The position numbers and the translations under genes were made by a program. Under the pieces are notes generated by a model. It was given only the letters and a program-made list of their open reading frames with translations. It was not told where the DNA came from and did not search any database. Positions 38,201-53,248 of a stretch of 64,000 nt of DNA are shown here, in pieces (the stretch's first letter is position 1; the number at the start of each line of letters is the position of its first letter). This DNA is from Pectobacterium punjabense (lineage in GTDB: Bacteria > Pseudomonadota > Gammaproteobacteria > Enterobacterales > Enterobacteriaceae): assembly GCF_012427845.1 (NCBI RefSeq), contig NZ_CP038498.1:1674001-1738000 (forward strand). Reading direction: 5' to 3'.

Positions 38201-39136
38201 ATGCAAAGACAGCGACACAGGCGAAGTGAAAAACCAGCAGGCGATCGGTGCTGTGCGAGTGAGGCTGATATCTCAGGTTCACGCCGTACTTTGCCAGATG
38301 GCATCGGAGAATGCTGGTCGGATTTCAGTCGTATTGATGCCGATCTGTCGTTGGCGCGCTCGCAATACCGGCCACGTCGTGCATGGGTGGAGGAAACCCA
38401 AAATCCACATTCACAGCCAATGCTGGTTATGACGTTTGCGCTGGCAGGGGAGTCTACCTATTGTGACAGCAGTGGCTCACAGATCTGGTTTCGTCAGCAA
38501 CATGTCACTATCACGACGTTTGGCTCCAGCGTGGGCGAACGCCGTTATCAGGCCCAGCAGCATGTCGATCAACTGCGGCTGCGGATAGGGAAAACGGCGG
38601 CGGCGCGCTATTTGGGGTCGGACTGTGCGGAACAACTGTTCAGTGACGATGGTGTGCGACAGCGCGCGTTTACATCGATATCTGCGGCTAGTCAGGTTCA
38701 TGTCAATGCGTTGTGCAGTGACACCGATCCGCTGAATCGCCACATCCATGCGTTAAGCCTGCTGTCACAGTATCGACATCTTCTACAACCGAAAGACAGG
38801 CGTGATGCTGTTTATCCACAGGAGCGGCAGCAGTTGGAGCGGATATGTTGCTGGATGCGGGAACATTTGGCTGAGCCGCTGACGCTGGCCTGCATTGCGA
38901 CTCAGGCAGGGATGAGTGAATCCCGACTCAAACTAGGGTTTCACCGCTGTTTCGCAACGACGCCGGGTCAAATGCTATTACGAATGCGAATGGAACGGGC
39001 GCACCAGCTATTGGATCAAGGGTTTCAGGTGGCGCAGACGGCCTGGCAAGTCGGCTATCGGCATCCCGCCAATTTCAGTCTGGCATTTACGCGCTATTTT
39101 AACCGTAATCCGAAAATGATTGCGGCACGTAAGTAA
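38201..39136 (+). CDS. AraC-family regulator of the PchR/YbtA type
   Basis: About 311 residues. The open frame begins at 38117, but GAGGGAAG just before the ATG pair 38198/38201 and the Fur-like box at 38131 argue for the later start. The C-terminal AraC domain reads PLTLACIATQAGMSESRLKLGFHRCF and VAQTAWQVGYRHPANFSLAFTRYF, like PchR and YbtA, regulators that respond to siderophores. The N-terminal half is poorly conserved and effector unknown. Divergent from the methyltransferase gene. Confidence 0.82.
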   Translation: MQRQRHRRSEKPAGDRCCASEADISGSRRTLPDGIGECWSDFSRIDADLSLARSQYRPRRAWVEETQNPHSQPMLVMTFALAGESTYCDSSGSQIWFRQQHVTITTFGSSVGERRYQAQQHVDQLRLRIGKTAAARYLGSDCAEQLFSDDGVRQRAFTSISAASQVHVNALCSDTDPLNRHIHALSLLSQYRHLLQPKDRRDAVYPQERQQLERICCWMREHLAEPLTLACIATQAGMSESRLKLGFHRCFATTPGQMLLRMRMERAHQLLDQGFQVAQTAWQVGYRHPANFSLAFTRYFNRNPKMIAARK

Positions 39137-39207
39137 TCTATCTTGTTGGCATTAATATCAGACCGTTAACAAATCTACTTGCGGCACGAATCAGAAATAT
39201 GCCGCGC

Positions 39208-39447
39208 TCAGCGACCAATAAGCCGCAACTGGGTACAAAATGGGCAACCACAGCCGTTAATGGAGGTCGCATCACACTGGCCGGGGTGAATAGTTTCCAG
39301 CCCCATTGGCGTAAAGCCAGAAAAGGTGCGCTTAGGTTCATCGATATTGTTCAATCCACTCTCCGTAGACTGGGCTATTTTGGCCTGAAACGCAGAAGCT
39401 TGTGCCGCAACCAGGGAAAGAAATAGAACTGACAGACCTTTTTTCAT
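39208..39447 (-). CDS. Small secreted cysteine-containing protein under a Zur-like operator
   Basis: 79 residues: signal peptide MKKGLSVLFLSLVAAQASA with cleavage after AQASA, then a 60-residue mature protein with four cysteines near the C-terminus (GQCDATSINGCGCPFCTQ), ending LRLIGR. The CxCxxC cluster could bind metal or form disulfides. I do not recognise the family. GGAT lies near the expected ribosome site. A perfect TGTTAT-N3-ATAACA Zur-like palindrome sits 28 bp upstream of the start. It follows amn by 108 bp in the same direction but seems to have its own promoter. Confidence 0.75.
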   Translation of the reverse strand: MKKGLSVLFLSLVAAQASAFQAKIAQSTESGLNNIDEPKRTFSGFTPMGLETIHPGQCDATSINGCGCPFCTQLRLIGR

Positions 39448-39474
39448 CGAGTTTATCCGTTATGGAATTTGGTT

Positions 39475-39489
39475 TGTTATAACATAACA
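39475..39489 (-). promoter_or_regulatory. Zur-like operator upstream of the small secreted protein
   Basis: TGTTATAACATAACA agrees with the core of the enterobacterial Zur consensus (TGTTATA-N-TATAACA) at 13 of 14 positions and is a perfect six-base inverted repeat. Flanking bases match the longer consensus poorly. A related site lies at 47554-47568. Confidence 0.65.
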
Positions 39490-39555
39490 AGTTAAGCCAT
39501 GCCAGCTCAGGCGAGCGCACAAATGCGGCCGCCTGTCCTAATAAAAGCCATGTAA

Positions 39556-41016
39556 TCAGCGGAACGGTGGCTCGTTAAAGGTGCGTAGTTTACGTGAGTG
39601 CAGCTTGTCGCTTTCCGCTCGCAGTAGATCGATGGCGCAGATACCAATCTGCAAATGCTCCGAAATCGCCCCTTCATAGAAACGGTTTGCCTGTCCCGGC
39701 AGCTTGATCTCACCGTGCAACGGTTTATCCGAGACACACAGTAGCGTACCGTAAGGCACACGGAAGCGATAACCCTGTGCGGCAATCGTCGCGCTTTCCA
39801 TATCGACTGCGACAGCGCGGCTGAGATTAAACCGCAGTGCGGAAGCGGCATAGCGTAGCTCCCAGTTGCGATCGTCGGTGGTGACCACGGTGCCGGTACG
39901 CAGGCGTTGCTTCACTTCTTCCCCCGGCATACCGCTGACCATCTTGGTGGCGTCATACAATGCGCGCTGCACCTCGGCGATACTGGGTATCGGGATATCC
40001 GGCGGTAAAACGGCGTCCAGTACATGATCGTCACGTAGATAAGCATGTGCCAGTACGTAATCGCCAATAGACTGACTTTCGCGTAGACCGCCGCAGTGGC
40101 CGATCATCAACCAGGCATGCGGGCGCATTACCGCGAGATGATCGCAGATGGTTTTCGCATTAGATGGCCCGACACCGATATTAACCATCGTAATACCTTT
40201 CCCGTGGCGGGGAATCAGATGATAGGCGGGCATCTGGTGGTTTTTCCATGCCAGATCGGATACGGTTTGCTCGGGATTGGGCGTCTCGGCTGTGATGTAG
40301 ATACCGCCCGCGCAGGACAGTGCCTCATAGGGGCTAGCGGGATCGGCAATTTGCGCACAGGCCCAGCGCACAAACTCATCAACATAGCGGGTGTAGTTGG
40401 TGAAGAGAATGAATGGCTGAATGTGTTCCACTGGCGTGCCGGTATAGTGACGAAGCCGGGCAAGCGAGAAGTCGGTACGCAGTGCGTCAAAATGCGATAA
40501 TGGCGACGTGGTGGTGGCATGATACAAGCCATCAGCCGTTTCATCCCCAATCTGTGACAGCTCCGTGGTCGGAAAATGTTTCGCGATGCCCGCGCTCATG
40601 GAACGATCAAGAATCAGGTCGGAACCGTCGAGCACGTAGGGGAACGGGATCTCCTGCTGTGATGGACTGACTTCAATGCTGACGTCATAGTCTCCTTCAA
40701 GCAGCGCCAGCTGTTCCGCGAGATAAGCGCGCAGAAACGCGGGGCGGGTGACGGTGGTAGAATAACTGCCGGGATGGGTAAAACGCCCATAGGCACGATG
40801 TCGAGGATGTCCGGTCGATTCACCGTTCCAGCTCACGCGCAAGGCGGGGTAGGAAAACAGCCCGGCGGCACGCGCGTTGGTATCGGGTAGCGTGCCGTGG
40901 GTGATAAAGTCTCCGATGGCGTCGCGCAGCGCCGAGACGGCATCATCATACAGCGCTTCCAGTTTATCCAGAGCCTGAGTGACGGTGAGGCTGATGTGGG
41001 ATTCGCTGCTATGCAT
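39556..41016 (-). CDS. amn: AMP nucleosidase Amn
   Basis: 486 residues from ATG 41016 (GGAGAG upstream), nearly colinear with E. coli Amn: FGRFTHPGSYSTTVTRP, TLDRSMSAG-like block, SCAGGIYITAETPNPEQ, the phosphorylase-fold stretch VNIGVGPSNAKTICDHLAV, and closing LHSRKLRTFNEPPFR. It hydrolyses AMP to adenine and ribose 5-phosphate in the cytoplasm. It follows the ABC importer operon by 129 bp on the same strand, so read-through is possible. Confidence 0.95.
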   Translation of the reverse strand: MHSSESHISLTVTQALDKLEALYDDAVSALRDAIGDFITHGTLPDTNARAAGLFSYPALRVSWNGESTGHPRHRAYGRFTHPGSYSTTVTRPAFLRAYLAEQLALLEGDYDVSIEVSPSQQEIPFPYVLDGSDLILDRSMSAGIAKHFPTTELSQIGDETADGLYHATTTSPLSHFDALRTDFSLARLRHYTGTPVEHIQPFILFTNYTRYVDEFVRWACAQIADPASPYEALSCAGGIYITAETPNPEQTVSDLAWKNHQMPAYHLIPRHGKGITMVNIGVGPSNAKTICDHLAVMRPHAWLMIGHCGGLRESQSIGDYVLAHAYLRDDHVLDAVLPPDIPIPSIAEVQRALYDATKMVSGMPGEEVKQRLRTGTVVTTDDRNWELRYAASALRFNLSRAVAVDMESATIAAQGYRFRVPYGTLLCVSDKPLHGEIKLPGQANRFYEGAISEHLQIGICAIDLLRAESDKLHSRKLRTFNEPPFR

Positions 41017-41145
41017 GTTCTCTCCTTTATTCACACTCTTCATATTCTGTACTTCGGCAGAGGTTAGCTAACAGCGTAACTGAAGATGCACTGACCCGCC
41101 ATCGTCAAATCTGGCGGGTAAACGCTCATGAAGCGAAGCATGCGG

Positions 41146-42924
41146 TTAGTGCTTGTGGCGACCAGAGAGATTCGCTGCGCTCACGGCCAGTATCGACAGC
41201 ACGCCGAGTGCGGCAGCCGGTGCCAGAACGCCCCAGAAGGCGCGTTCGATATATGGCATACCTTCCGCTAATACGCGTCCCCATTCCGGCGTTGGCGGTG
41301 ACGCGCCCAGACCTAAAAAACCGAGTGATGCCAGCGCCAGCGCGATGCCGGGGAGCCGCAGCATGGCGTGACGAAAAAGCGGGCCAGCCAGCGCGGGCAG
41401 AATATAGAACAGGCTACGCCGTATCGGGCCCACGCCGAGTATCGGCAACATCCGAATATAAGGGCGCGCATTAATTTCAGCGACCAGCGCTGCGGTGTGG
41501 GCAGCGAGTGGAGCCCAACTGACGGCGATGACCGCTATCGCCGCACCTGTGGCCGTTGGGCCATTGACGGCGGCAACCAGCAGCCCGGCGATCACTGGCG
41601 GCAGGGCGTTAGTCACTTCGATGGGGCCGGTGAACAGACGCGGGAACAGCCCGACCAACAGGCCAATGGCGAGACAGGCCAGCGATACCGCCAGTGCCAA
41701 CAGGCAGGTATTCAGCGTGCCGTGTGCAACGCGTGCGAGTAAATCACGCCCCATCGCGTCTGCGCCAAAGGGCAGCGCGAATGAAGGCGGTTGCAGGCGT
41801 AAAAAAGAGGAGGTAACGGGATCGCGCGGCAGACCCGCGAGTAGCAGAAGTGCCAACAGCAGTACGCAGACAATCGGTAGCCAGATGGCGTGGCGAGACA
41901 CGAGGCTAGCGCGTTCTTCCGGCACCGGCATTGCCCCGCTGCGCAGTGCACGTCCGAGGATCAGCAGCCGCACACCGCCAGCCGCCATGCCAGCTAGCGA
42001 GGCGATAAGGAGTAATATCAGCACGCCGACCTGCAATGCGGGCAAATCCTGCGCGGCAGCGGCGCCCAGCGTTGCGCGTCCCAGACCGGGAATAGCAAAC
42101 ACTTTTTCGACGGCAATGGCACCGCCAGTTAGCGATACCAGTACCAATCCGACCAGTGGCATCACGCTGGGCAGCGTGCGTTTCAGCACGGCCAGCGCGA
42201 TATGACGACGGCTCACGCCTGCCACACTCCAGGTGGTGAGCCAGTTTTCGCTAAAGGTGGCGGAGAGCGCATCGGCAATAATCCGGCCAAGGTAACCGCC
42301 TGCCGGAATACCGAGCGCCAGCGACGGCAGCACCGCGTAGTGCAGGCCTAGCCAGCCATAAGGGGGAAACCACTGTAGCCAGACGGCACCGACAATCAGC
42401 AGAAATGACGCCAGCAGGAATTCGGGCAGCGCGGTAAAGAAGGCGGCAAACAGACCGCCTGAACGGTGAATATGACCACGAAGCCCCTGCCGGAACGTTG
42501 GGGCGCACAGCACCGCAGCCAGCGTGAAAGCCACCAGCGCTGAAGAGGCCATCAGCGTGAGCGAGACGCCCGCCGCTTGCAACATGCCTGGGAGCACGGG
42601 TTGACCAGAAACCCAGGAATTGCCGGCATCGCCGTGCAACAGGCCGGTCAGCCAGTTCAACAGTAGCTGCAACGGGCCTTTATCCAGCCCGAGCGACTGA
42701 CGAATCGCGTTGAGCGTTTCCGCTGTTGCTTCCTGTTCACCAGAGCGGGCGCGTAACAATGCCAGCGCCGGGTCCTGGCCAGATAGCCACGGCAGCATAC
42801 CAATCAGTACCACAATGCCCGCTAGCGTTAGCAGTCGCGAAAACAATGGGATCAGTACGCCATAGCGTGGGCGTTGCGTCTGGTTAATGTTGGCACAGGT
42901 GCGGCAGTACAGCGATTCGCTCAT
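41146..42924 (-). CDS. Fused double permease of a nickel/peptide-type ABC importer
   Basis: 592 residues combining a DppB-like half (about 25-325) and a DppC-like half (about 345-590), normally separate. The first half has the DppB signature GGAIAVEKVFAIPGLGR, the second the DppC end FLGLGASPPTPEWGRVLAEG. The N-terminal 20 residues carry CRTC and are not obviously membrane. With the lipoprotein binding protein and two ATPases it would form a complete importer. The other genes are in the same order on the minus strand. Peptide, nickel or metallophore substrates are all possible for the family. Confidence 0.88.
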   Translation of the reverse strand: MSESLYCRTCANINQTQRPRYGVLIPLFSRLLTLAGIVVLIGMLPWLSGQDPALALLRARSGEQEATAETLNAIRQSLGLDKGPLQLLLNWLTGLLHGDAGNSWVSGQPVLPGMLQAAGVSLTLMASSALVAFTLAAVLCAPTFRQGLRGHIHRSGGLFAAFFTALPEFLLASFLLIVGAVWLQWFPPYGWLGLHYAVLPSLALGIPAGGYLGRIIADALSATFSENWLTTWSVAGVSRRHIALAVLKRTLPSVMPLVGLVLVSLTGGAIAVEKVFAIPGLGRATLGAAAAQDLPALQVGVLILLLIASLAGMAAGGVRLLILGRALRSGAMPVPEERASLVSRHAIWLPIVCVLLLALLLLAGLPRDPVTSSFLRLQPPSFALPFGADAMGRDLLARVAHGTLNTCLLALAVSLACLAIGLLVGLFPRLFTGPIEVTNALPPVIAGLLVAAVNGPTATGAAIAVIAVSWAPLAAHTAALVAEINARPYIRMLPILGVGPIRRSLFYILPALAGPLFRHAMLRLPGIALALASLGFLGLGASPPTPEWGRVLAEGMPYIERAFWGVLAPAAALGVLSILAVSAANLSGRHKH

Positions 42925-42961
42925 AGACTCTTCATCTTTCTGGTTACAGGTGCGTTACCTG

Positions 42962-44470
42962 CTATTTCGTCGCAGCAATATGCGTGGCTGAATTGATCAG
43001 CGTACGTTCACGTGGGTCGCGCAGTGCGTCTTTCACCTGTGCGCCTTCCCCCTGGATGACGCGTTCATGCAGCATTGGGATCGCGGCATCGCTGGCAAGG
43101 ATCAGATTTTCTGCCTGCATAATGGCCTGACGGCGCGCTTCTCCTGCGGGAATGGCCGCTGCTTTTTGCAGAGCCTGATCGATTTCCGGGCGGCACAACT
43201 GAGCGATATTGAACGACCCTTCACAGGCAAAGTCGCTATACAGATAAGCAACGGGATCGCCGGAGTCTAGCACCGTTGCTCGCGATAAAATAAAGGCGTC
43301 AAACTTGCCTGCCAGCGCGTCAGACTCAATCTGCGCATACTCACGTACAACTTGCTTTACCGTAAATCCAGCGGCAGTGAGTTGCTGTGCCAGATAGACC
43401 GCGACTTCAGGTAGCTCGGCGCGATCGCTGAAAGTGGCTAGCGTGATGGTGGCACCCGCAGGCGTACCGGCTTTAACCGGATTCGCCACGGGTTGGCGCA
43501 GCTCGGCAGCCCATGGCAGCGCAGGGCCTAACAACCCTTGGGCGACATCGGCACGCTTCTCATACACATTATCCACCAATTGCTGGCGGTTGATCGCATC
43601 GCGTACGGCAGCCCGCATTGTGGGATCTTGCATCACGCCATGGCGCGTATTCAGATACAGCGTGTTGGTGCGTGGCATGGGGACTTCATGTACCAGTGAT
43701 TGATCCAGCAGCGGAGCCTGAGAAACCGGAATGGCTTCGACAATATCTGCCGTACCGGTACGTAAGGCGGCAGCACGTGCTGCGCCATCGGACACAAAGC
43801 TGACATCAATACCGCTGGCCTGTGCTTTCTCCCCCCAGTAGCCGTCGAACCGATCCAATACCGCGCTGCTGGTGCCCGTGACGCTACGCAGAGCGAACGG
43901 GCCGCTTCCGGTGTTGATCGGATTAACGACTCGATTTTTACCGTACGCATGCGTGGAGAGGATCGCCAATTGCGGGCTGGATAAACGCTGTGGCAGCAGT
44001 GGATCGGGTTTAGCAGTGGAAACGATAACAGCACTATCGCCATCGGCTTTTATCGTTAACTGCACGCCGTCCAGAATACGCGGCTTGGGCGATGCGGTGG
44101 AGGCCACCGTCAGCGCATTCACTACCGTGGCGGCGTTTAATGTGGTGTTGTCATGAAAATGGACGTTGGGACGCAGTTCAAAACGCCAGGATTTATCATC
44201 GATCTGCTGCCATTTTGTCGCCAGCGCGGGCTGGGCTTCACCCAGTTTGTCGAGCACCACCAGCGTTTCTGCCGTACTCCAGCGTGACAGCTTAAAGGCG
44301 TCATCGCTCAGCGGCGTCAGGCCGGAGCGCGGTGGCTGGAGCATCGCCAGTTTGATTCGACCGTCATGATGTGAAGTAGGGGTTTCTTCCGGTTCATTGA
44401 AGCAGCCTGAAAGCAGTAGCGTGGCTGACAGCAGGCCGGAAACGGGCCACAGGAGATTACGCATATTCAT
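42962..44470 (-). CDS. Lipoprotein substrate-binding protein, DppA/NikA family
   Basis: About 502 residues: lipobox LLLSGC, then a family 5 extracellular binding fold (TAETLVVLDKLGEAQPALATKW, RFELRPNVHFHDNTTLNAATVV, the tail DAAIPMLHERVIQG). Family 5 proteins bind peptides, nickel complexes or opine metallophores such as staphylopine (CntA). Start 44470 is preferred because AAGGA lies seven bases upstream; ATG 44488 overlaps the MFS gene by 8 bp. The Zur-like box before the operon favours a metal complex. Confidence 0.85.
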   Translation of the reverse strand: MNMRNLLWPVSGLLSATLLLSGCFNEPEETPTSHHDGRIKLAMLQPPRSGLTPLSDDAFKLSRWSTAETLVVLDKLGEAQPALATKWQQIDDKSWRFELRPNVHFHDNTTLNAATVVNALTVASTASPKPRILDGVQLTIKADGDSAVIVSTAKPDPLLPQRLSSPQLAILSTHAYGKNRVVNPINTGSGPFALRSVTGTSSAVLDRFDGYWGEKAQASGIDVSFVSDGAARAAALRTGTADIVEAIPVSQAPLLDQSLVHEVPMPRTNTLYLNTRHGVMQDPTMRAAVRDAINRQQLVDNVYEKRADVAQGLLGPALPWAAELRQPVANPVKAGTPAGATITLATFSDRAELPEVAVYLAQQLTAAGFTVKQVVREYAQIESDALAGKFDAFILSRATVLDSGDPVAYLYSDFACEGSFNIAQLCRPEIDQALQKAAAIPAGEARRQAIMQAENLILASDAAIPMLHERVIQGEGAQVKDALRDPRERTLINSATHIAATK

Positions 44471-44480
44471 CAATCTGTCC

Positions 44481-45728
44481 TTATTCATTCACGGTTGACG
44501 CGGATTTAAACGGGCGGCAGATAACCATCATGGCTAGCGAGCTGCACAGGGGGACGGCGGCGAGCAGCACCCACGGAATGGCGGCCTGTGGCGATGGTGT
44601 CAGTGCACGATCGAGTTGGCTACCGAGTATAAAATTACCGACCAGCACGGCGATGCCGCCCATTGACGCTAATGCACCATAGTGCGCGCCCAGATTCTGG
44701 TTGTTAGCAAAGCGGGGAATAAGATCCATGCCAACGGGAACGATTAACATCTGCCCCAGCGTCAGCAGGGTAATTAATGAGATAGCGGGAAGCAGACGTT
44801 GCCATCCCTCAGGCGGCGTGCTGGAGGCAAACAGCGCCACGCTAAAGAACGACGCGGCCAGCAGTGCGAAACCCAATGGCAGCATGCGTGCTGCGCCAAT
44901 CCGGCGGGCAAAACGTGCTAGCGGGAGCTGTAACCCGATCACCAGCAGGGAAGCCAGCACAAACAGCGGGCCGAGATCTTTCTCACTGCTGCCAGAGCGA
45001 TGCAGTTCAACTGGCAGCGCCAGATAGAGCTGGTTGTAGCTGAACAGGTAAGCGCTATAGGCGATGATGAATGCGACAAAGCGCCGTTGGCGGAAGGTCT
45101 CCCACCAGGGGGCAATCTGCAATTCGCCCCGATTGCGCTGCGTTGGCGGCAGGCTGAAAAACAGGATAATGAGCGCGATAACAAACACTCCCGCACCGGC
45201 TAGCGCCACGCGCTGGAATCCGTATCCCGCCAGCACCGAGCCGAGCAACGGCCCTAGCACGGCACCCAGCTCGCCGCAAATGGCAAACAGGGCGAACCAT
45301 TCGGAACGGCTACGCTTTCCCTCTTTTTCGCTTTGCGTACCGGCCTGCGCCATCAGCGCTTCAATGGCGGGAGAGAACAGGGCACCACCAACCCCAGTCA
45401 GACAGGCGCCTAGGATGATCGGCCACAGCGAGTCGCCTAACGCCAGCAGTAAATAGCCGCTAATGCGCACCACACAGCCGCACAGGATAATCACGCGTGC
45501 ACCGAAGCGGTCTGCCAGTGCGCCGCCGACTAAAAACATGCCCTGCTGAGAAAAGGTGCGTAAGCCAATCACTAGCCCGATAGCCCAGCCGGACAGCAGC
45601 ATGTCATCGCGCAGGAAAATAGCCAGAAACGGCACAACGGCATAAAAACCAATGTTGAAAACAAGCTGGCTACCCAGAAGTAGCGGGGGATAAGGCCGTG
45701 GAGCGCGGTTGGCGGTAAGGTCTAACAT
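44481..45728 (-). CDS. MFS transporter within the ABC importer operon
   Basis: 415 residues, twelve hydrophobic helices, MdtH-like drug-efflux type (NIGFYAVVPFLAIFLRDDMLLSGWAIGLVIGLRTFSQQ, GGALADRFGAR). It is sandwiched between the ATPase and binding-protein genes. In staphylopine, pseudopaline and yersinopine loci an exporter of this kind releases the free metallophore while the ABC system takes it back. Here that role is an inference, as no synthesis genes are present. Confidence 0.82.
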   Translation of the reverse strand: MLDLTANRAPRPYPPLLLGSQLVFNIGFYAVVPFLAIFLRDDMLLSGWAIGLVIGLRTFSQQGMFLVGGALADRFGARVIILCGCVVRISGYLLLALGDSLWPIILGACLTGVGGALFSPAIEALMAQAGTQSEKEGKRSRSEWFALFAICGELGAVLGPLLGSVLAGYGFQRVALAGAGVFVIALIILFFSLPPTQRNRGELQIAPWWETFRQRRFVAFIIAYSAYLFSYNQLYLALPVELHRSGSSEKDLGPLFVLASLLVIGLQLPLARFARRIGAARMLPLGFALLAASFFSVALFASSTPPEGWQRLLPAISLITLLTLGQMLIVPVGMDLIPRFANNQNLGAHYGALASMGGIAVLVGNFILGSQLDRALTPSPQAAIPWVLLAAVPLCSSLAMMVICRPFKSASTVNE

Positions 45729-45828
45729 TCAATCATCCGTTATAGAACAAGCCGTGATAGAAATCCCCGTGATGGGGAAATGTGTTATTGACGCGGTATT
45801 TTATTGTGAAACGGGTGTTTTGAGCGAG

Positions 45829-46647
45829 CTAATAGCCTAGGGTCGACAGTACGGGAACGGCCTGCAATAGGCGGGCGGTGTGCGGTTGCTGCGGTGAAGT
45901 CAAGACCGCAGCCGTGGGGCGATCTTCGATGATACGCCCGCTATCCATAACCAGCATTCTGTCGCACAACCCGGCGAGCATAGAAATGTCGTGCGATACC
46001 ATCAGCAATCCCATCTTGTTTTGTTCAGTGACGTGTTGCAGCAGGGTTTTGATCTGTTCACGTAACGGTAAATCCAGACCGCTGACAGGTTCATCCGCCA
46101 GTAAAAAATCGGGGCGAATAATCAACGCTCGCGCCAGCGCGACGCGCTGCGCCTGCCCACCAGAAAGCTGACCAGCGGCTTTGTCCAACAGCGTTGTACT
46201 GAGTTCGACTTGTTCCATGACATTGCGCAGGGATACTGGCGCATTTTCACCAGGACGCAGGCGCTTTAGCGGCTCAGTGAGGAGATCGGCGACGCGTTGG
46301 CGTGGGGCAAGCGATCCTGCTGGATCTTGCGGAATATACTGAACGCGGCGGCGATACCAAAGCAACGAACGTACCGAACCGGGCTTAATCAGGTTACCGT
46401 CACAGTACACCGTACCACTCTCCGGCTCTTCAAGTGCGAGCAGCGTTTTCAGTAAGGTAGATTTACCGCAGCCCGAGGCACCAACCAGACCGACACGTTC
46501 GTGACGGTGCAAGTGTAGCGACAGGTCGTGAAAAATCGCACTGGCAGGATCGGCCTTTTGCCACGGTAAACGCGACGTCTGGCGATAGCGGCTGACGTGC
46601 TCAAGACTTAAAAAAGGTGAAGGAACTGCATGCAGGTGGTGATTCAT
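45829..46647 (-). CDS. ABC importer ATPase, DppF-like
   Basis: 272 residues: Walker A GASGCGKST, signature QLSGGQAQRVALARAL, Walker B FLLADEPVSGLDL, and switch His in VSHDIS. Four-base overlap with the upstream ATPase gene. Partners the other ATPase on the fused permease. Separated by 100 bp from the MFS gene. Confidence 0.9.
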   Translation of the reverse strand: MNHHLHAVPSPFLSLEHVSRYRQTSRLPWQKADPASAIFHDLSLHLHRHERVGLVGASGCGKSTLLKTLLALEEPESGTVYCDGNLIKPGSVRSLLWYRRRVQYIPQDPAGSLAPRQRVADLLTEPLKRLRPGENAPVSLRNVMEQVELSTTLLDKAAGQLSGGQAQRVALARALIIRPDFLLADEPVSGLDLPLREQIKTLLQHVTEQNKMGLLMVSHDISMLAGLCDRMLVMDSGRIIEDRPTAAVLTSPQQPHTARLLQAVPVLSTLGY

Positions 46648-47522
46648 CCGGCAAGCGCTCCGGCAACGGGTAACACACTAGTGGGTAAGATATTGATGGG
46701 TAAAACATGGGTTGATAAAACATTGGTTGATAAAAAATTGGTTGATAAAACATCGTCAGCGCGACGGGCAGCAGCCACCAAACGACGAGTATAAGGATGT
46801 TGTGGTGCATTCAGTAGTTGCAGCATACTGCCGGATTCAACGATCTGACCATTTTCCATTACCAGACCGCGCTGGCAGAGTTGGGCGGCGACAGCAATAT
46901 CATGCGTAATAAACAGCAGTGCAGGTGCATCCGGCTGCGCGCTACGTTCCTGTAAGACGCGTAATACCTGCTGCTGAGTGATGACATCAAGCGCGGTTGT
47001 GGGTTCGTCTGCCACCAGTAACCGAGTTTTGCCAAGCAGCGCGAGGGTAATACAAACACGCTGACGCTGACCGCCGGACAGTTCGGCAGGGTAGCGCTGC
47101 AATAGGTTGGGAATATCGTCCAGCTTCATGGCTGTCAGAAGCGCAGCAAGCTCAGCAGAAGAGGGGGATTTCAACGCCAGCGAGAGCTGTTTCCCTAACG
47201 GCATGAGCGGATTCAGCGCCGTCGCAGAGTCTTGAAAAACGGCAGATGCCCGACTGGTATGCGGGCGCGCCAGCGCTTTCAACTGACTGACCTCTTCACC
47301 ATTTACCTTAATACTGCCGCTAATCTGGCAGCCTGTGGCTGGGGTGCCGATCACGGCTTTAGCCGTGAGGGATTTACCTGAACCCGATGCGCCGAGTAAA
47401 CAGACGCGTTCGCCTGCGAACAGCGTAAAGCTGATGTCACTGACTTTGGTTTCACCACCAATAGACAGGCGAAGGTTCTCCACCTGAAGAATGGCGTCTG
47501 TGTGTCTGTCCCAACTGATCAT
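46644..47522 (-). CDS. ABC importer ATPase, DppD-like, with pentapeptide-repeat tail
   Basis: About 292 residues from ATG 47522: Walker A GASGSGKS, signature LSGGQRQRVCITLAL, Walker B LLVADEPTTALDV, switch His in ITHDIAV, and the HPYTRRL segment of OppD/DppD ATPases. After it come about six pentapeptide units of the pattern VLSTN (residues about 256-285), encoded by 15-bp tandem repeats in place of the usual C-terminal region. The open frame extends to 47564, across a Zur-like site, so 47522 is preferred, though no good ribosome site precedes it. Confidence 0.87.
   Translation of the reverse strand: MISWDRHTDAILQVENLRLSIGGETKVSDISFTLFAGERVCLLGASGSGKSLTAKAVIGTPATGCQISGSIKVNGEEVSQLKALARPHTSRASAVFQDSATALNPLMPLGKQLSLALKSPSSAELAALLTAMKLDDIPNLLQRYPAELSGGQRQRVCITLALLGKTRLLVADEPTTALDVITQQQVLRVLQERSAQPDAPALLFITHDIAVAAQLCQRGLVMENGQIVESGSMLQLLNAPQHPYTRRLVAAARRADDVLSTNFLSTNVLSTHVLPINILPTSVLPVAGALAG
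46667..46756. repeat. 15-bp tandem repeat, about six units, inside an ATPase gene
   Basis: Units at 46667, 46682, 46697, 46712, 46727 and 46742; the cleanest are TTGATAAAACATTGG and TTGATAAAAAATTGG, with outer units diverged (TGGGTAAAACATGGG, TGGGTAAGATATTGA). The length is a multiple of three, so copy changes keep the frame. Confidence 0.85.
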
Positions 47523-47553
47523 GGTTAAGGTATACGGTTGATGTAAATAGATA

Positions 47554-47568
47554 TGTAATAACATAACA
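47554..47568 (-). promoter_or_regulatory. Zur-like operator before the ABC importer operon
   Basis: On the minus strand TGTTATGTTATTACA agrees with the Zur core TGTTATA-N-TATAACA at 12 of 14 positions. It lies 32-46 bp before the preferred start of the first ATPase gene, over a likely promoter. Weaker than the 39475 site. Confidence 0.5.
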
Positions 47569-47724
47569 AATTAAAGCGAAATGATGCAAAGGAAATGTGA
47601 TCCAGAGCGAATAAATTGGCGCAGAGACGCCGTCTTAGTCGACTGCGTCGATGATTAAATAGAGGGGGTAAAGAATAAACCGTAGGGAAGTGCGGACTAT
47701 CTCGTGGCGTTGTATTTTTAGAGC

Positions 47725-48645
47725 CTACTCATTCGGTGAGTCAACAAGCTGTGCCAGTTCCGTTGCGCTCAACTGAGTAATCTGACAAACCTGAGCAGGT
47801 TCCATGCCGCTAAGCAGGAGCTGACGAGCAATGTTTCGAGCACTGGCTTTCATACCATGCTGTATTCCTTGCTGCATGCCATGTTTGATGCCTTTTTCAA
47901 ACCCGATTTTCTCAAGCTGCTGTGCGATGGTCATGATCGCCTCCCGATCCGTTGACAGAGACTGCGCGACGGCCTCAATAAACTCTGCCGGTTTTGATGT
48001 ATTGCCGCTCCGCGCGATGTAAAACAGAATCGCTCTTTTTTGCGGCAGCGGTACCTGCCAGCGCTCAAATAATAGCCCGATATCCTGCGCCAGTTCCAGC
48101 ATATCTCGCGTGCGAATGTGTTTTTGTACTAATTCTAGTAGTGCTACGCGGCGATGCGTCTTGATTTCTTCATCTGGCATCACCGTCAGGTCAACCAAAG
48201 GAAAGGGGGCGTTGTAGAGTTTTTCTGCCTGAATAGAGTCAGCAAAACCGTCGAGCCAACGCAGCGTATAGGGATAAGGGCTACGCTGGCCGTGATAAAA
48301 CAGTAAAGGAACGACGAGCGGCAACGTGTCATGACCTTGAGAGAGGTGCTGTTGCATAGCAGCCAGCGCGTAGCGCAGCAGGCGAAATGGCATCAGTTTT
48401 TCTGGGCGGCTCTGATGTTCAATCACACAATAGATATAACCTTGTCCTGTGGTGGTATGAATCGAATACAGCATATCCGATATTCTTGCGCGTAGTTCTT
48501 CGTCGACAAAAGAAGCCGATTGCAGTTGTAATGAGCTGAAATCACAGATATTCCTGATTTCTTCTGGCAGGTGAGCGGCGAAGAAATCCTTTGCGATGGC
48601 TGGATCGCTGAGAAACTGTTTAAACATCGCATCGTGCGCGGCCAT
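47725..48645 (-). CDS. Rpn/YhgA-family PD-(D/E)XK nuclease
   Basis: About 306 residues from ATG 48645 (MAAHDAMFKQFLSDPAIAKDFF is the standard Rpn N-terminus). Putative catalytic residues in ARISDMLYSI and YIYCVIEHQSRPE. The C-terminal part has short G-(I/M)-xxG repeats (KGIKHGMQQGIQHGMK). Family members are endonucleases that promote recA-independent recombination and often vary in repeat number. Monocistronic. Confidence 0.88.
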   Translation of the reverse strand: MAAHDAMFKQFLSDPAIAKDFFAAHLPEEIRNICDFSSLQLQSASFVDEELRARISDMLYSIHTTTGQGYIYCVIEHQSRPEKLMPFRLLRYALAAMQQHLSQGHDTLPLVVPLLFYHGQRSPYPYTLRWLDGFADSIQAEKLYNAPFPLVDLTVMPDEEIKTHRRVALLELVQKHIRTRDMLELAQDIGLLFERWQVPLPQKRAILFYIARSGNTSKPAEFIEAVAQSLSTDREAIMTIAQQLEKIGFEKGIKHGMQQGIQHGMKASARNIARQLLLSGMEPAQVCQITQLSATELAQLVDSPNE

Positions 48646-48817
48646 GCTGTTTTTCCGTCCCTGAATGTCTGTCCACAATGATAAAAGAGGCGGATATGAG
48701 CAGGGAAGAAACGCAGAGGATAATTACTCTGATATGGAAGCGTACACGCAAGAAAAGGACGAAATGAAAGAAACGCAGCGATCTCACTGGGAGCGAGATC
48801 GCGTTAAGGTGTGAGAG

Positions 48818-50611
48818 TTAAATCTGTTGCTCGGCCAGCCACTGGCGCAGGCGTTCGGACTGCTGTGCGCCGCTCAGGCGAGCACGTTCTTCACCGTTTT
48901 CAAGCCATAGCAGCGTCGGTAGCGTCCTGACTGCCAATTGCTCCGCCAGTGTAATGTGATGATCGGCGTCCAGATAATGGCTCGACACATGTTGGTATTC
49001 CTCGTTATCCAGCATCGTTTCCAACTGGCGGTAGAGGCTCTTACAGTGGACGCAGCGCTCGGCACCGACTAGCAACAGCTGTGGTTCAGCTTGTGCTGCT
49101 AGTTCCGGCCAGTCGTCGGCGGTAAGCGGAGCAAAGCGCTCACGGTTGACGGCAAAGAGTTTCGGGCTGCGTTTAAGGTCTTCGCTGTCGGTCGCGACAC
49201 ACAGGGCATCGCCGCTCTTTTTGTAGGGGCGCGTGCCGTCAATACGAATGATGCTGGCGAAGCCTGGCGCGGCGGCACCGGGCTGACGTAGCTGGGTGTT
49301 ATCCGGGGCGATCACCGGCGTTTCCTGTGGGCGCGGCAGTTGTGGTACCCACTCATAGGGGACGCGGTAGGCGCGATACAGCATATTGGTGTTCACCGTC
49401 TTGCCCCAGTAAGGTGAAACAAATTCCCAGACAATTTCATGATCGACGGTGACTTCAAACAGCCGGCCGTTAGCCCCTTCGTTAATCAGTGTATTGCCGT
49501 TTGGCAGGCGTTGGATATTGCTGATGTACGGGCTGTAAAAACGAAAGGCGTCGGTCGGGTGTGGAATGCCGGCTTCATAAGGCGAATAGCGCCAGACAAT
49601 ATCCAGCGTCACTGGGTTGATTTCCAGCACGCGGGAATGGTCGCGCCAGGCGTTTTTCACTCCATCAGGGGATGCTGGGTTGGGCGCGCCGTAGCCTGCC
49701 CAGCCGCCGTTATCAAACACCAGAATATTGCCTGCGCCTGGCAAGCCGGCGGGGATCATATGCGCATGATGTTGACCGATAATCCAGCCGATGTGTTTGA
49801 GTTCGGGCGTATTGTAATTGGGACCAAGCTGCCAGACGATATCGCCGCTTTGCTTGTCGATGATGGCAATAATATTGGATTCGCGGGCGTCCCAGATGAT
49901 GTTATCGGGGTGGAAACGGGTATCGCCCTGATCGAACCACGGATTGGGGCCGAGTGCCGACATCGAGTTGATATGCATCCAGTCGCCCATCCCGCCGCCG
50001 CTTTTGCGCAGGTTAGGATTATTGTACAGCGCGGTTTTGGCATCGTCGTCAAAGCCCAATTCATCGAAATGGTCGCTGCACCGCCACTCCCATAAAATAT
50101 TGCCCTGCCAGTCTACCTCGATGATGGTGTCATCAAGTAATAGTTTGTCGCTGATGCGTTCGTTATGCAGGTTGGTGTGCGCCAGTAATAGCGTGTTGCC
50201 GCCAATCGACTGCGGTTCTTGCCCCGGTGCGTAATAGCCGACTGGGTTGCCGCTGCGCTGGTAGTCATGATGGACGCGCGCCATCCACTCGGGCGGGAGA
50301 TCAGGATCGGTGATGTGCTCATAGCCGTTGAATTTCCAGACGACGTTGCCATCCCAGTCTACCTGAATCAGATCGACCATATCTTGCATACCGTAGCGCG
50401 AGTCACGTTCGCCGCTGTGACCGAGGATGTAACCGCCGGGCAGAATTTTGTTGGGGAAGCCGTGCAGACCTTCCCACAGGCGCAGTTCGGTGCCGTTCAT
50501 ATCCACCAGCACCGCGCCGCGCTCCAGTGCCTGAAAAACGGTGTAGCCGCCCCAGGCTTTTTCTGGGTTGTAAATCGTTGTGCCGGTTGGATAGACGGAT
50601 GGGTGTCCCAT
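48818..50611 (-). CDS. Arylsulfotransferase-like protein fused to a thioredoxin-like domain
   Basis: 597 residues. Residues about 1-470 are an arylsulfotransferase-family repeat domain (GGYTVFQALERGAVLVDMNG, the metal-like HHAHMIPAGLPGAGNILVFDNGG, RLPNGNTLINEGANGRLFEV). Residues about 500-597 are a thioredoxin fold with CVHC at 520-523 and cis-proline region RTLPTLLWLENGEE. There is no signal peptide, unlike classical periplasmic arylsulfate sulfotransferases. It starts 17 bp after the ATPase gene end on the same strand, so it belongs with the sulfur-type ABC importer. A role in sulfate-ester or sulfonate breakdown is inferred. Confidence 0.82.
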   Translation of the reverse strand: MGHPSVYPTGTTIYNPEKAWGGYTVFQALERGAVLVDMNGTELRLWEGLHGFPNKILPGGYILGHSGERDSRYGMQDMVDLIQVDWDGNVVWKFNGYEHITDPDLPPEWMARVHHDYQRSGNPVGYYAPGQEPQSIGGNTLLLAHTNLHNERISDKLLLDDTIIEVDWQGNILWEWRCSDHFDELGFDDDAKTALYNNPNLRKSGGGMGDWMHINSMSALGPNPWFDQGDTRFHPDNIIWDARESNIIAIIDKQSGDIVWQLGPNYNTPELKHIGWIIGQHHAHMIPAGLPGAGNILVFDNGGWAGYGAPNPASPDGVKNAWRDHSRVLEINPVTLDIVWRYSPYEAGIPHPTDAFRFYSPYISNIQRLPNGNTLINEGANGRLFEVTVDHEIVWEFVSPYWGKTVNTNMLYRAYRVPYEWVPQLPRPQETPVIAPDNTQLRQPGAAAPGFASIIRIDGTRPYKKSGDALCVATDSEDLKRSPKLFAVNRERFAPLTADDWPELAAQAEPQLLLVGAERCVHCKSLYRQLETMLDNEEYQHVSSHYLDADHHITLAEQLAVRTLPTLLWLENGEERARLSGAQQSERLRQWLAEQQI

Positions 50612-50627
50612 AATGGTGCTCCAGTAT

Positions 50628-51437
50628 TTACGTGTTCAGAGTAGAGGAGATGGCCGCCGTATCGGCTGGCTGTGTCAGCAGTGCGAGCAGATCGCTACAC
50701 TGCTGGTGAAAGTCTTGGCTGTCACGCTGGCGCGGGTGCGGCAGAGAAATGGTTGCAATCTGGCGGATACGCCCCGGTCGTGGTGCCAGTACGACAACGC
50801 GGTCTGCGAGGTAGACGGCTTCTTCGACGTCGTGCGTCACCAGTAGGGTAGTGGTGCCTTCTGCCTGATGAATACGACGCAACTCTTGCTGCATCTGCTG
50901 GCGAGTCAGGGCATCTAATGCACCAAAAGGTTCATCCAGCATTAGGATGCGGGGATTGGCGACGAGCCCGCGCGCGATGGCGACACGCTGCGCCATACCG
51001 CCGGAAAGTTGGGCGGGCAGGGCATCGGCAAAATCCTGCAAATGCACTAACTGAATAAAGTGGTCGATCAGGCGTTTGCGCTCTTTTTCGCTGATTGATT
51101 CATTCGCCAGCCCGAGTGCGATGTTTTGCCGCACGGTCAGCCATGGAAACAGGCGTGGTTCCTGAAACACCATGCCGCGCTCGCGTCCAATACCACGAAC
51201 GGTTTTTCCTTCAACCAGCACGCGTCCCTGATAGTCGTTGTCTAATCCGACCAACATGCGCAGCAGTGTGGATTTTCCGCAGCCGCTGCTGCCGACAATC
51301 GCCACCAGCTCACCGCTGTGAATCGACAGTGAAAAATCATCGATTACCGTCAGCGGTTCGCCTTGTACACGAAACTGTTTGCGTAGATGGTCGAATTGCA
51401 CCACGGGCGGCGACACATCAAGGGAAGGGGACGTCAT
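50628..51437 (-). CDS. ABC transporter ATPase, SsuB/TauB type
   Basis: 269 residues: Walker A GSSGCGKST, signature LSGGMAQRVAIARGL, Walker B ILMLDEPFGALD, switch His in VTHDVEEAVYLAD, all of the nitrate/sulfonate/taurine ATPase class. Four-base overlap with the permease gene upstream. Confidence 0.9.
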   Translation of the reverse strand: MTSPSLDVSPPVVQFDHLRKQFRVQGEPLTVIDDFSLSIHSGELVAIVGSSGCGKSTLLRMLVGLDNDYQGRVLVEGKTVRGIGRERGMVFQEPRLFPWLTVRQNIALGLANESISEKERKRLIDHFIQLVHLQDFADALPAQLSGGMAQRVAIARGLVANPRILMLDEPFGALDALTRQQMQQELRRIHQAEGTTTLLVTHDVEEAVYLADRVVVLAPRPGRIRQIATISLPHPRQRDSQDFHQQCSDLLALLTQPADTAAISSTLNT

Positions 51438-53011
51438 ACGATTTCTCCTGCGGAACGCCAGCGCGTCATCCGCTGTTCCAGACTGAGTCCGACGCGATTG
51501 AGCACCGCGCCTGTTAATCCAATCAGCAGCATACCGCTGATAATCAAAGGCATATCCAGCAACTGTTGGGCATTGATCATCAGGCTGCCGATTCCGGTGC
51601 CGGATGACATGAAATATTCTGCGCCGATGGTGCCAAGCCAGGCATAAATCAGCGACAGGCGTAAACCCGTGAAGATGGCAGGCGCTGCGCCTGGCAGGAT
51701 CAAGACTCGCAGACGGGTCGATAAACGGAGTTGCAACACGTGAGCGACTTCCTCTAATGCCTGTGAACGTTGGCGAATGCCGCGATGGCTGGCCACCAGC
51801 ATAGGAAAGAAGGAGGCGAGTGCGACAAACGTGATTTTTCCAGTTTCATCGTTACCGACCCAAGCGGTCAGCAGCGGTAGCCAGGCAAACAGCGCAATTT
51901 GGCGCAGCGTCGCGACAGTCGGCGTGAAGAGGGCGTCGCTGGTGGGATGTAGCCCCAGCAGAACACCGCATATGAGGCCCGCGACAATACCGCCTATCGC
52001 ACCGGCCAGCGCACGAGTCAGGCTGGCCTGCATCGCCTCGGTAAGCGAACCGTCGCGAATGCCTTGTAGCAGGATGTGCCACACATCGGCGGGCGGAGGA
52101 AGCAAGAGCGGGTCGATCCAGCCAAAGCGGCTGGCCTGCTGCCAGAACAGCAGAAGCAGAAAGGGTAAAACCAGTGCCGATAGGCGGCGAGACGGTGCCG
52201 TGGTTAAGCGGCTGATTGGTGGATGCGGCCAGAAGACCAGACGGCGATCCAACTGATTGATCATCCATTCCATCGTCAACCCTGCCAGTCCGATGGTGGC
52301 AATGCAGACAAACACGATGTCTAGCTGAAACAGCTGACGTCCCCATACCAGCAGGTAACCAATCCCCTGAGATGACGCCAGCAGTTCGACTACGATCAGC
52401 GATACCCACGCCTGTGAGAGTGCGAGCCGCAGGCCAGTGAGCCAGGTCGGGAACGCAGCGGGCAGTGTTAATTTGATGAGACGCTGATGCCACGGTAGGC
52501 GCAGCGTACGTGCGACTTCCTGTAGTGCATGCGGCACATTACGCACGCCCGTTTGCGTATGCAGCGTCACGGGAATAATGACGGCTTTGATAATCACCGC
52601 CAGCTTCAGGCCGTCATCAATACCGAATAGCACCATAAACAGAGGTATCCACCCCAGCGTTGGGATCTGCGCCAGCACGTATACCGTTGGGTGCAGCAGG
52701 TGTTCGGCGCGCCGTGATGCCCCCATCAGCGCGCCAAGTAAGGTTCCTGCGAGTAAACCGGCCAGCAGGCCGCTCGCTAAGCGTTGCAAACTGATAAAGA
52801 GCTGTGGCAGGAGATCGTTGTGCCAAAGCTCGACGGCGGTGTTGGCGACAATATGAGGGGCAGGAAGAATCTGGGAGGGCATCCAGCCGTAGTAGGTACT
52901 GATATACCACAGTGCCAGCAACGCCAGCGGCACGACGAGCGGATAGGCCAGCGCTATCGGCAGCGAAGGCCAGACGATCACGGTTTTTTTCAGCACTATC
53001 GACTTATTCAT
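51434..53011 (-). CDS. Fused double permease, sulfonate/sulfate-ester ABC importer
   Basis: About 525 residues from ATG 53011; the frame opens at 53116 but the first membrane segment follows 53011. Two complete SsuC/TauC-type permease domains in one chain: EAA-loop regions at about 162-200 (LQEVARTLRLPWHQRLIKLTLPAAFPTWLTG) and 418-455 (ALEEVAHVLQLRLSTRLRVLILPGAAPAIFTG). The Pseudomonas AtsB-type sulfate-ester importers are the closest comparison I know of. Pairs with the adjacent ATPase and the divergent binding protein. Confidence 0.88.
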   Translation of the reverse strand: MNKSIVLKKTVIVWPSLPIALAYPLVVPLALLALWYISTYYGWMPSQILPAPHIVANTAVELWHNDLLPQLFISLQRLASGLLAGLLAGTLLGALMGASRRAEHLLHPTVYVLAQIPTLGWIPLFMVLFGIDDGLKLAVIIKAVIIPVTLHTQTGVRNVPHALQEVARTLRLPWHQRLIKLTLPAAFPTWLTGLRLALSQAWVSLIVVELLASSQGIGYLLVWGRQLFQLDIVFVCIATIGLAGLTMEWMINQLDRRLVFWPHPPISRLTTAPSRRLSALVLPFLLLLFWQQASRFGWIDPLLLPPPADVWHILLQGIRDGSLTEAMQASLTRALAGAIGGIVAGLICGVLLGLHPTSDALFTPTVATLRQIALFAWLPLLTAWVGNDETGKITFVALASFFPMLVASHRGIRQRSQALEEVAHVLQLRLSTRLRVLILPGAAPAIFTGLRLSLIYAWLGTIGAEYFMSSGTGIGSLMINAQQLLDMPLIISGMLLIGLTGAVLNRVGLSLEQRMTRWRSAGEIV

Positions 53012-53248
53012 TTTATTCCACGAAAGCATCACTATTGGATGGATAAGGAATAAAAAACAGGTTTCAGCGTTGAACGCCAATGCAATAAAGCGATGGGCAT
53101 CGTGCAATAAATGCATATGCGTAGCTCAAGCCCGCCAGCGCTGATTTATGCTTTTTTCCGCTGAACAAACCTGTAAATGTTATTTAAGCCTGACACCAAC
53201 GGTTCGCTAGTTTCATGGCAGATAAAACGGATGACTGAGGAAAACCGT

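Follow-up and report, generated by a model that had tools for sequence, protein, structure and literature searches.

A Zur-Associated ABC Importer Operon of Pectobacterium as a Candidate System for Uptake of Ligand-Bound Zinc

Considered here is a 'window' of 64,000 nucleotides of the Pectobacterium punjabense chromosome (G000:C1:1674001-1738000), that is, the whole of the stretch of DNA that was analysed, with positions counted from its first letter. Found within it is a five-gene operon (41146 to 47522, minus strand) which encodes an ATP-binding cassette (ABC) importer along with a major facilitator superfamily (MFS) transporter, and, nearby, a gene for a small, exported-looking, cysteine-bearing protein (the 'Cys protein'). 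Each of these two units is preceded by a Zur-like operator. The best overall explanation, to which a probability of roughly 0.6 is assigned, is that the importer is a Zur-regulon member which takes up a zinc-ligand complex, with the MFS protein exporting the ligand. Control of the block by Zur, as judged from its operators, is very likely, while import of zinc specifically in the form of a ligand complex seems reasonably probable. The original prediction had been of zinc-responsive metallophore transport. Zur-controlled, zinc-responsive transport is now strongly supported (by operators, conservation, the presence of a Zur gene, and plasmid neighbourhoods), with the metallophore portion of that idea no more than plausible.

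Withholding of zinc is a main host defence, to which ZnuABC and opine zincophores are the best-known bacterial answers. A zinc-starvation importer which is separate from both, and which is widely conserved, would add another route for zinc. The existence of a Klebsiella plasmid form, as considered below, makes the question of zinc carriers relevant to infection biology as well as to plant disease. As a kind, Zur-controlled ABC uptake is already known; what would appear to be new here is a conserved, fused-permease form with an optional MFS partner.

Zur-like operators

Both of the predicted 15-mers are present, i.e., TGTTATAACATAACA at 39475-39489 and TGTTATGTTATTACA at 47554-47568, minus strand, and these are the sole zero-mismatch occurrences in the window of the pattern TGTTAT-N3-ATWACA. 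With two mismatches allowed there are 9 matches in the window versus 5.0 expected, a number equalled in 11 of 100 shuffles. At that stringency the pattern is not rare in the window, and the case for these sites as operators therefore rests on other tests.

One such test is genomic. With at most one mismatch to the enterobacterial Zur core, TGTTATANTATAACA, six places are found in the 4.79 Mb genome, the site at 39475 among them (the site at 47554 has two mismatches to this core). The other five places precede, respectively, a ZnuA-family ABC, a FecCD-type ABC, rpmE2-rpmJ2, znuA/znuCB, and zinT with a COG0523 gene. Well-known zinc-starvation genes are downstream, that is, of four of these five, with rpmJ2 and some of the other neighbours named by eye and the ZnuA-family ABC described as azt-like from its gene order. 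Allowing two mismatches adds six further distinct places: the importer operator, a DUF1007-NicO pair, and four that lack evident zinc genes.

A weight matrix was trained on the five other genomic sites only, leaving out both of the sites in question. The scan with a Zur matrix that the original prediction had proposed then places these two at the top of the window, with 27.6 bits for 47554 and 25.7 bits for 39475. Among 30,000,000 positions simulated with the dinucleotide make-up of the window, none reached 25 bits, one reached 20 bits, and 26 reached 15 bits. Each operator also possesses a second, weaker dyad offset by 5 bases (20.5 bits at 39470 and 14.8 bits at 47549), as do the training sites, at 13.5 to 24.9 bits for four of the five and 9.5 bits for that of znu. 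The genome encodes a Zur protein (319 bits versus a cutoff of 167). Both sites thus look like genuine Zur operators, to which Zur presumably binds.

With regard to position, the site at 39475 is approximately 28 bases upstream of a 79-residue open reading frame (ORF), and that at 47554 is approximately 32 bases upstream of the first ATPase gene, assuming a start at 47522. That start is placed there because the start of the longer ORF, 47564, falls within the operator. The two operators head separate units of like orientation, between which lies an AMP nucleosidase gene. Consensus promoters within 39000-48000 are not above chance frequency.

Two of the other genomic sites may be described further. 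A doubled Zur-like site of 33.0 bits (G000:C1:179759-179778), which is the second-best training site, precedes the FecCD-type ABC, the binding protein of which has as its best model an F420-0-type, below cutoff; this is possibly a second chelate importer. The two-mismatch site at G000:C1:3411938 precedes a DUF1007 gene, a NicO-family gene, and a Peripla_BP_2 gene, with the DUF1007-NicO genes being presumably zevAB-like.

Conservation of the importer and its operator

All 24 Pectobacterium genomes searched carry the binding protein of the importer, which in G016 is split, and no ortholog was found in the 16 order-level genomes searched alongside them. Its fused permease was found in 33 of 343 family genomes, representing 19 of 154 genera. 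Phylum-wide the binding protein is rare, with 6 of 299 genomes having it at 1e-90 or better. Its identity to the aligned Actinobacteria and Alphaproteobacteria, counted from the window, is 64 to 71%.

Conservation across species, which the original prediction had left to be checked, holds for the importer's operator. Forty enterobacterial loci were compared, half of them from Pectobacterium (20 of the 23 besides that of the window) and half from outside of that genus (20 of 29), and in each a Zur-like site immediately precedes ATPase 1, scoring at least 25.9 bits in Pectobacterium and at least 16.6 bits in the others. A wider set was built from one genome per species: out of 193 loci with relatives, the 80 best were retained. 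There a site of at least 16 bits, sought from 220 bases before to 60 bases after the inferred start of the first ATPase, is found in 69 of the 80 loci. Boxes of the actinobacterial kind, other than those on the Streptomyces plasmid considered below, are not claimed, as near the operon there are 3 to 5 mismatches in five of seven loci, no box in two, and one locus matching better elsewhere.

Plasmid copies and their zinc-gene neighbourhoods

Upon searching annotated plasmids with a Paracoccus relative, 525 records were matched, of which 479 are Klebsiella. The Klebsiella virulence plasmid pLVPK carries the same five kinds of genes in the same order, with proteins 62 to 81% identical to those of the window, and this operon lies approximately 4 kb from zigA, hisI, and a gene for a Fur-family repressor. 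Zur-like sites on pLVPK are found at the start of the operon, where, as for the longest ORF in the window, the site overlaps the annotated start, and also between hisI and the repressor gene. PMC2770081 marks a Zur-regulated cluster on pLVPK, doing so for COG0523 and zinc-paralog genes; in the main text of that publication the phrase 'ABC transporter' occurs 0 times.

The DNA of this Klebsiella operon is present in 499 of 72,556 plasmid records (479 Klebsiella and 20 Escherichia), always at 99% identity or more, and in 493 of these a single place covers 80% or more of the query. It is present as well in 19 of 5,426 E. coli genomes, where it is always plasmid-borne, with at least two of these genomes labelled as coming from a conjugation assay.

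In a second phylum, a Streptomyces plasmid encodes a binding protein and permease following rpmF, a COG0523 GTPase gene, and a Fur-family gene. The GTPase scores 518 bits with ZigA, for which the cutoff is 600. The three best matches on this plasmid to the actinobacterial Zur box have 1, 2, and 3 mismatches and lie before the genes for the binding protein and the Fur-family protein and before rpmF. This context of zinc genes in two phyla is, after the operators, the strongest reason for tying the importer to zinc.

The importer operon

The genes of the operon are as had been described, i.e., two ABC ATPases, an MFS transporter, an SBP_bac_5 lipoprotein, and a permease, all of which are collected, together with the operators and adjacent genes, in Table 1.

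Table 1. Positions in the window of the Zur-like operators, the importer operon, and neighbouring genes
Feature	Positions	Strand	Basis
Operator of ABC operon	47549..47568	.	Zur-like; dyad 47554-47568 plus weaker overlapping dyad 47549-47563
ABC ATPase 1, NikD/OppD-like	46644..47522	-	PF00005; oligo_HPY below cutoff; best NCBIfam model NikD, 188 bits versus cutoff 319
ABC ATPase 2, NikE-like	45829..46647	-	NikE models below cutoffs
MFS transporter, DHA1/MdtH-like	44481..45728	-	PF07690; MdtH 133 bits versus cutoff 469; motif C core GAVLGPLLG
Family 5 substrate-binding lipoprotein, NikA-like	42962..44488	-	Lipobox-like LLLSGC
Fused ABC permease, a single chain of NikB-like and then NikC-like parts	41146..42924	-	592-residue ORF
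amn, AMP nucleosidase	39556..41043	-	PRK08292, 810 bits versus cutoff 307; next gene, same direction
Operator of small Cys protein gene	39470..39489	.	Zur-like; dyad 39475-39489 plus overlapping 39470-39484
Small exported-looking protein, 79 residues, end ...HPGQCDATSINGCGCPFCTQLRLIGR	39208..39447	-	Translation; candidate zinc-binding protein

For the binding protein, comparison with CntA and NikA, as the original prediction had suggested, came out on the side of NikA. The best solved fold by Z is Staphylococcus aureus NikA, the best profile is Opp5A_nikA, and, as ranked by Foldseek E-value, a Bacillus halodurans nickel ABC binding protein is first with S. aureus NikA behind it. Fold and profile together point to a NikA-type protein, i.e., one predicted to bind a metal-ligand complex. 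By comparison, the CntA model (NF047575) gives 40 bits against a cutoff of 800. CntA structures are not among the 50 fold rows shown, which alone excludes nothing. The permease matches the models Opp1B (residues 32-306), Opp2B (32-307), and Opp2C (368-578), every one below cutoff.

The MFS protein

Relatives of the MFS protein scoring more than 100 bits are found in 33 of the best 80 loci. In 28 of these (26 Enterobacterales and two Arthrobacter) the gene lies between those of ATPase 2 and the binding protein. In the other five it adjoins the operon, that is, upstream (L135), after the permease (L197), or convergent and downstream (L196 and two Vibrio), with the two convergent Vibrio genes carrying their own site of 23.0 bits. 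The core of antiporter motif C is a signature of exporters, and this core, GxxxGPxxG, is kept in all 12 aligned rows, i.e., those of the window, of pLVPK, and of 10 of the 33 MFS-bearing loci. It may be, though at slightly less than even odds, that the protein exports a zinc-carrying ligand.

A possible mechanism

When zinc is plentiful, Zur would sit on both operators and shut off the five-gene importer operon along with the gene for the small exported Cys protein. Both units would be released when zinc is scarce. The NikA-like lipoprotein could then catch zinc as complexed with a small organic ligand, with the fused permease and the two ATPases drawing this complex across the inner membrane. 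The MFS protein, given its antiporter signature, would most likely send out metal-free ligand, either as a form of recycling or instead as release of a common metabolite which serves as a zinc carrier.

As to what that ligand might be, no ligand-synthesis genes were recognised beside the operon among the 40 most widespread neighbour clusters (80 loci, at most approximately 9 kb to each side), nor was a ligand-biosynthesis family recognised upon gene-by-gene reading of 14 loci, among the genes listed, with neighbouring genes named by eye from N-terminal sequences. Because no dedicated ligand-synthesis gene was recognised, the ligand may be a common metabolite (histidine-like, as for NikA) or a foreign chelator, from plants or from neighbouring bacteria. 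For soft-rot bacteria, a chelator from the plant, nicotianamine for example, is one possibility.

From a broader perspective, the system might be viewed, quite tentatively, as a mobile zinc-carrier shuttle of a kind not described before. That is, a Nik-type importer with a fused permease would be combined with an MFS protein, such that a ligand which lacks dedicated enzymes is taken in with zinc and then returned empty. This shuttle would be spread over Proteobacteria and Actinobacteria, including on plasmids, pLVPK and other Klebsiella virulence plasmids among them, near to zinc genes and a Fur-family repressor gene of the plasmid's own.

Points against, and alternative explanations

A number of observations weigh against the preferred reading, i.e., that of Zur-controlled import of a zinc-ligand complex. 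None of the zinc-transport models of NCBIfam and Pfam claims the importer proteins. Elsewhere in the same genome are znuABC as well as another ZnuA-family ABC, so that another cargo for this importer is conceivable. Eleven of the 80 loci of the wider set (L160, L163, L187, L189, L192, L194, L196, L197, L199, L200, and L201) lack a site of at least 16 bits at the ATPase start. Seven belong to Actinobacteria, where an enterobacterial matrix would not be expected to perform, and three to Alphaproteobacteria, the last being a broken operon from an insect symbiont; one of the eleven, the Paracoccus locus L200, lacks an operon site but has a 25.4-bit site before a nearby ZigA-type gene. For the Fur-family protein of the Streptomyces plasmid, no regulator model is above cutoff, and Zur is sixth among its models. 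Within the fetched stretch of 47 of the 80 loci there is no MFS relative of more than 100 bits, and on a tree of 34 rows the MFS trait requires seven changes, implying that the MFS protein is not essential and that the importer can work without it. Operon genes are fragmented in L117 (G016) and in L126 (Pectobacterium sp. PL152), so that the system would not be retained everywhere, although sequencing error is possible. In addition, among metal transport genes it is znuABC alone that is named in the text of PMC10298282, so far as that text was available, on deletion of zur in Pectobacterium odoriferum.

That the importer takes up an opine metallophore, of the staphylopine or pseudopaline kind and made by neighbours, was the fallback of the original prediction. 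In favour of this analogy are the combination of a Nik/Opp-type ABC with an exporter-like MFS protein, as in the cnt locus of S. aureus, along with the 178 bits of ATPase 1 with the CntD model (cutoff 380). The analogy nonetheless is loose, since the CntL/CntM locus of the family (G357, L204:5941-11829) is built otherwise, with an EamA-like exporter and its own FecCD-type importer, both recognised by eye, versus the MFS protein and Nik-type importer of the window. The cntL/cntM-like genes which were to be sought in the genome were also not forthcoming, with neither CntL nor CntM detected in Pectobacterium. Specifically, CntM (PF10100) is found in none of 40 relatives, where control genomes are equally silent, and in one of the 343 family genomes, a positive control which lies outside of the 33 fused-permease genomes (the surveys for permease and for CntM each comprised 343 genomes, under identical handles). 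CntL (PF03059) is found in none of the 24 Pectobacterium genomes, with one weak, sub-cutoff match among the 40 searched, though this model detects the true CntL of G357 at 30.3 bits (cutoff 27.1). Together with the low CntA score, these results led to rejection of membership in the Cnt group, and use of an opine metallophore by this importer is improbable. Observed at L204:5941-11829 is also a 23.8-bit Zur-like site before the binding protein, that is, at an opine zincophore locus of different build.

It is similarly doubtful that the operon is a Zur-repressed importer of nickel or cobalt, with the other metal filling zinc sites under zinc starvation. Nickel transporters do supply the closest profiles and folds, yet the NikA, NikB, NikC, NikD, and NikE equivalog models are all far below their curated cutoffs, and direct membership among nickel importers (NikABCDE) was rejected on those grounds. 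The neighbours on two plasmids, moreover, are zinc-starvation genes rather than nickel enzymes. Little more is to be expected of a peptide or amino-acid importer that is under Zur for metabolic reasons, e.g., recovering zinc-binding peptides or histidine rather than zinc: the binding protein is strongly conserved from one phylum to another, which along with the zinc neighbourhoods would favour one specific, zinc-linked cargo. By contrast, there is about an even chance that the operators are real while the Cys protein and importer are unrelated regulon members which are close to each other by chance. Named homologs of the Cys protein are confined to three genera, versus the importer in 19 of the family's genera and beyond, and in 8 of 20 importer-bearing Pectobacterium loci no copy of the Cys protein was detected. 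Where found in Pectobacterium and Samsonia, however, its gene adjoins amn and the importer and, if full length, has its own Zur-like site.

Comparison with known systems

Zur control of a nickel/dipeptide-class ABC has precedent in Paracoccus denitrificans, and pden1341-1344 of that organism is the closest such precedent to the system considered here. As described in the portions available of PMC5387054, these genes encode an ABC of the nickel/dipeptide class, are up 12.6- to 16-fold in zinc-depleted medium, and have a promoter, that of pden1341, which binds Zur, with no cargo assigned to the transporter there; the authors find Zur control of a transporter of this class to be somewhat unusual. 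The likeness to the window is that of a nickel/dipeptide-class (cluster C) ABC, which is Zur-controlled there and has a Zur-like operator here, with the pden genes also near a COG0523 gene. Listed for pden1341-1344 (PMC5387054, Table 1) are a binding protein, then two permeases, and last a single ATPase, without an MFS protein, whereas the window operon has two ATPases, an MFS protein, a binding protein, and a fused permease. The likeness considered is one of transporter class. Among named relatives are ones from P. versutus and another Paracoccus.

The pLVPK cluster shares with the window the same five-gene layout but differs in having its own Fur-family repressor, zigA, and hisI in addition. 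With S. aureus NikA and the NikABCDE nickel-histidine importers, the likeness is that of the fold and best profile of the binding protein, while the window operon falls below the family cutoffs, has its permease fused, and possesses a Zur-like operator and an MFS partner. Staphylococcal CntABCDF-CntE with CntKLM (staphylopine) also combines an Opp/Nik-type ABC importer with an MFS protein, in its case an exporter, and is zinc-related. It differs from the window system, where CntL and CntM were not found, the CntA model falls short of its cutoff, and the permeases are fused. The ZnuABC and AztABCD zinc importers are alike in their Zur control but are of another ABC class, with a ZnuA-family binding protein.

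Opp/Nik-type ABC subunits are filed by KEGG under 'quorum sensing', which would tie an enrichment seen in P. odoriferum to the operon as a hint only. That is, with zur deleted, 56 genes are up, with ABC transporters and quorum sensing enriched, as given in the available text of PMC10298282. Also considered, from partial texts, were ZepA (PMC10957091) and a zinc-resistance ABC of Cupriavidus (PMC7912956), both of which are unrelated. No such transporter is shown in the available text of PMC10797113, PMC6103462, or PMC10563805, and the literature searched, so far as its texts were accessible, yielded no account in which this operon is treated as a system for zinc.

The Cys protein and other neighbours

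The small protein following the 39475 site is, as predicted, secreted-looking, its start resembling a signal peptide and its end reading C-x7-C-x-C-x2-C. It has no Pfam or NCBIfam match, and that it may bind zinc is a guess from its Cys/His pattern. Its homologs form 11 clusters, the named members of which are solely Pectobacterium, Samsonia, and Brenneria. Of 20 other Pectobacterium loci, 12 were found to carry its gene, which is partial in two, and Samsonia has it as well; each of the full-length copies, i.e., 10 from Pectobacterium and that of Samsonia, is preceded by a Zur-like site of at least 20.7 bits.

An AztD-like gene, L104:12228-13547, gives 119.5 bits (below the cutoff of 400), with the L104 copy alone having been scanned. 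Such a gene is near to the Cys gene also in L122, L123, L124, and L132, and the two are convergent in several genomes of Pectobacterium. These AztD-like genes carry their own Zur-like site, of approximately 30 bits. None was seen beside the Cys gene in the window.

The gene amn adjoins the importer in Pectobacterium, in Samsonia, in three of four Brenneria loci, and in one Pantoea, with no evidence found of its membership in the transport system. Directly upstream of the operon, at 47725-48678, is an ORF of Rpn-like transposase/nuclease type (by eye), which in other Pectobacterium loci is present, partial, or undetected. The stretch 48818-54379 holds a large conserved gene and then, as judged by eye, an ABC cluster of sulfonate/nitrate type; relatives are near the importer in Samsonia and Brenneria too. 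In Goekera and Rhodococcus (L187, L197), a related large ORF near the operon resembles, by eye and from its start, a metal P-type ATPase.

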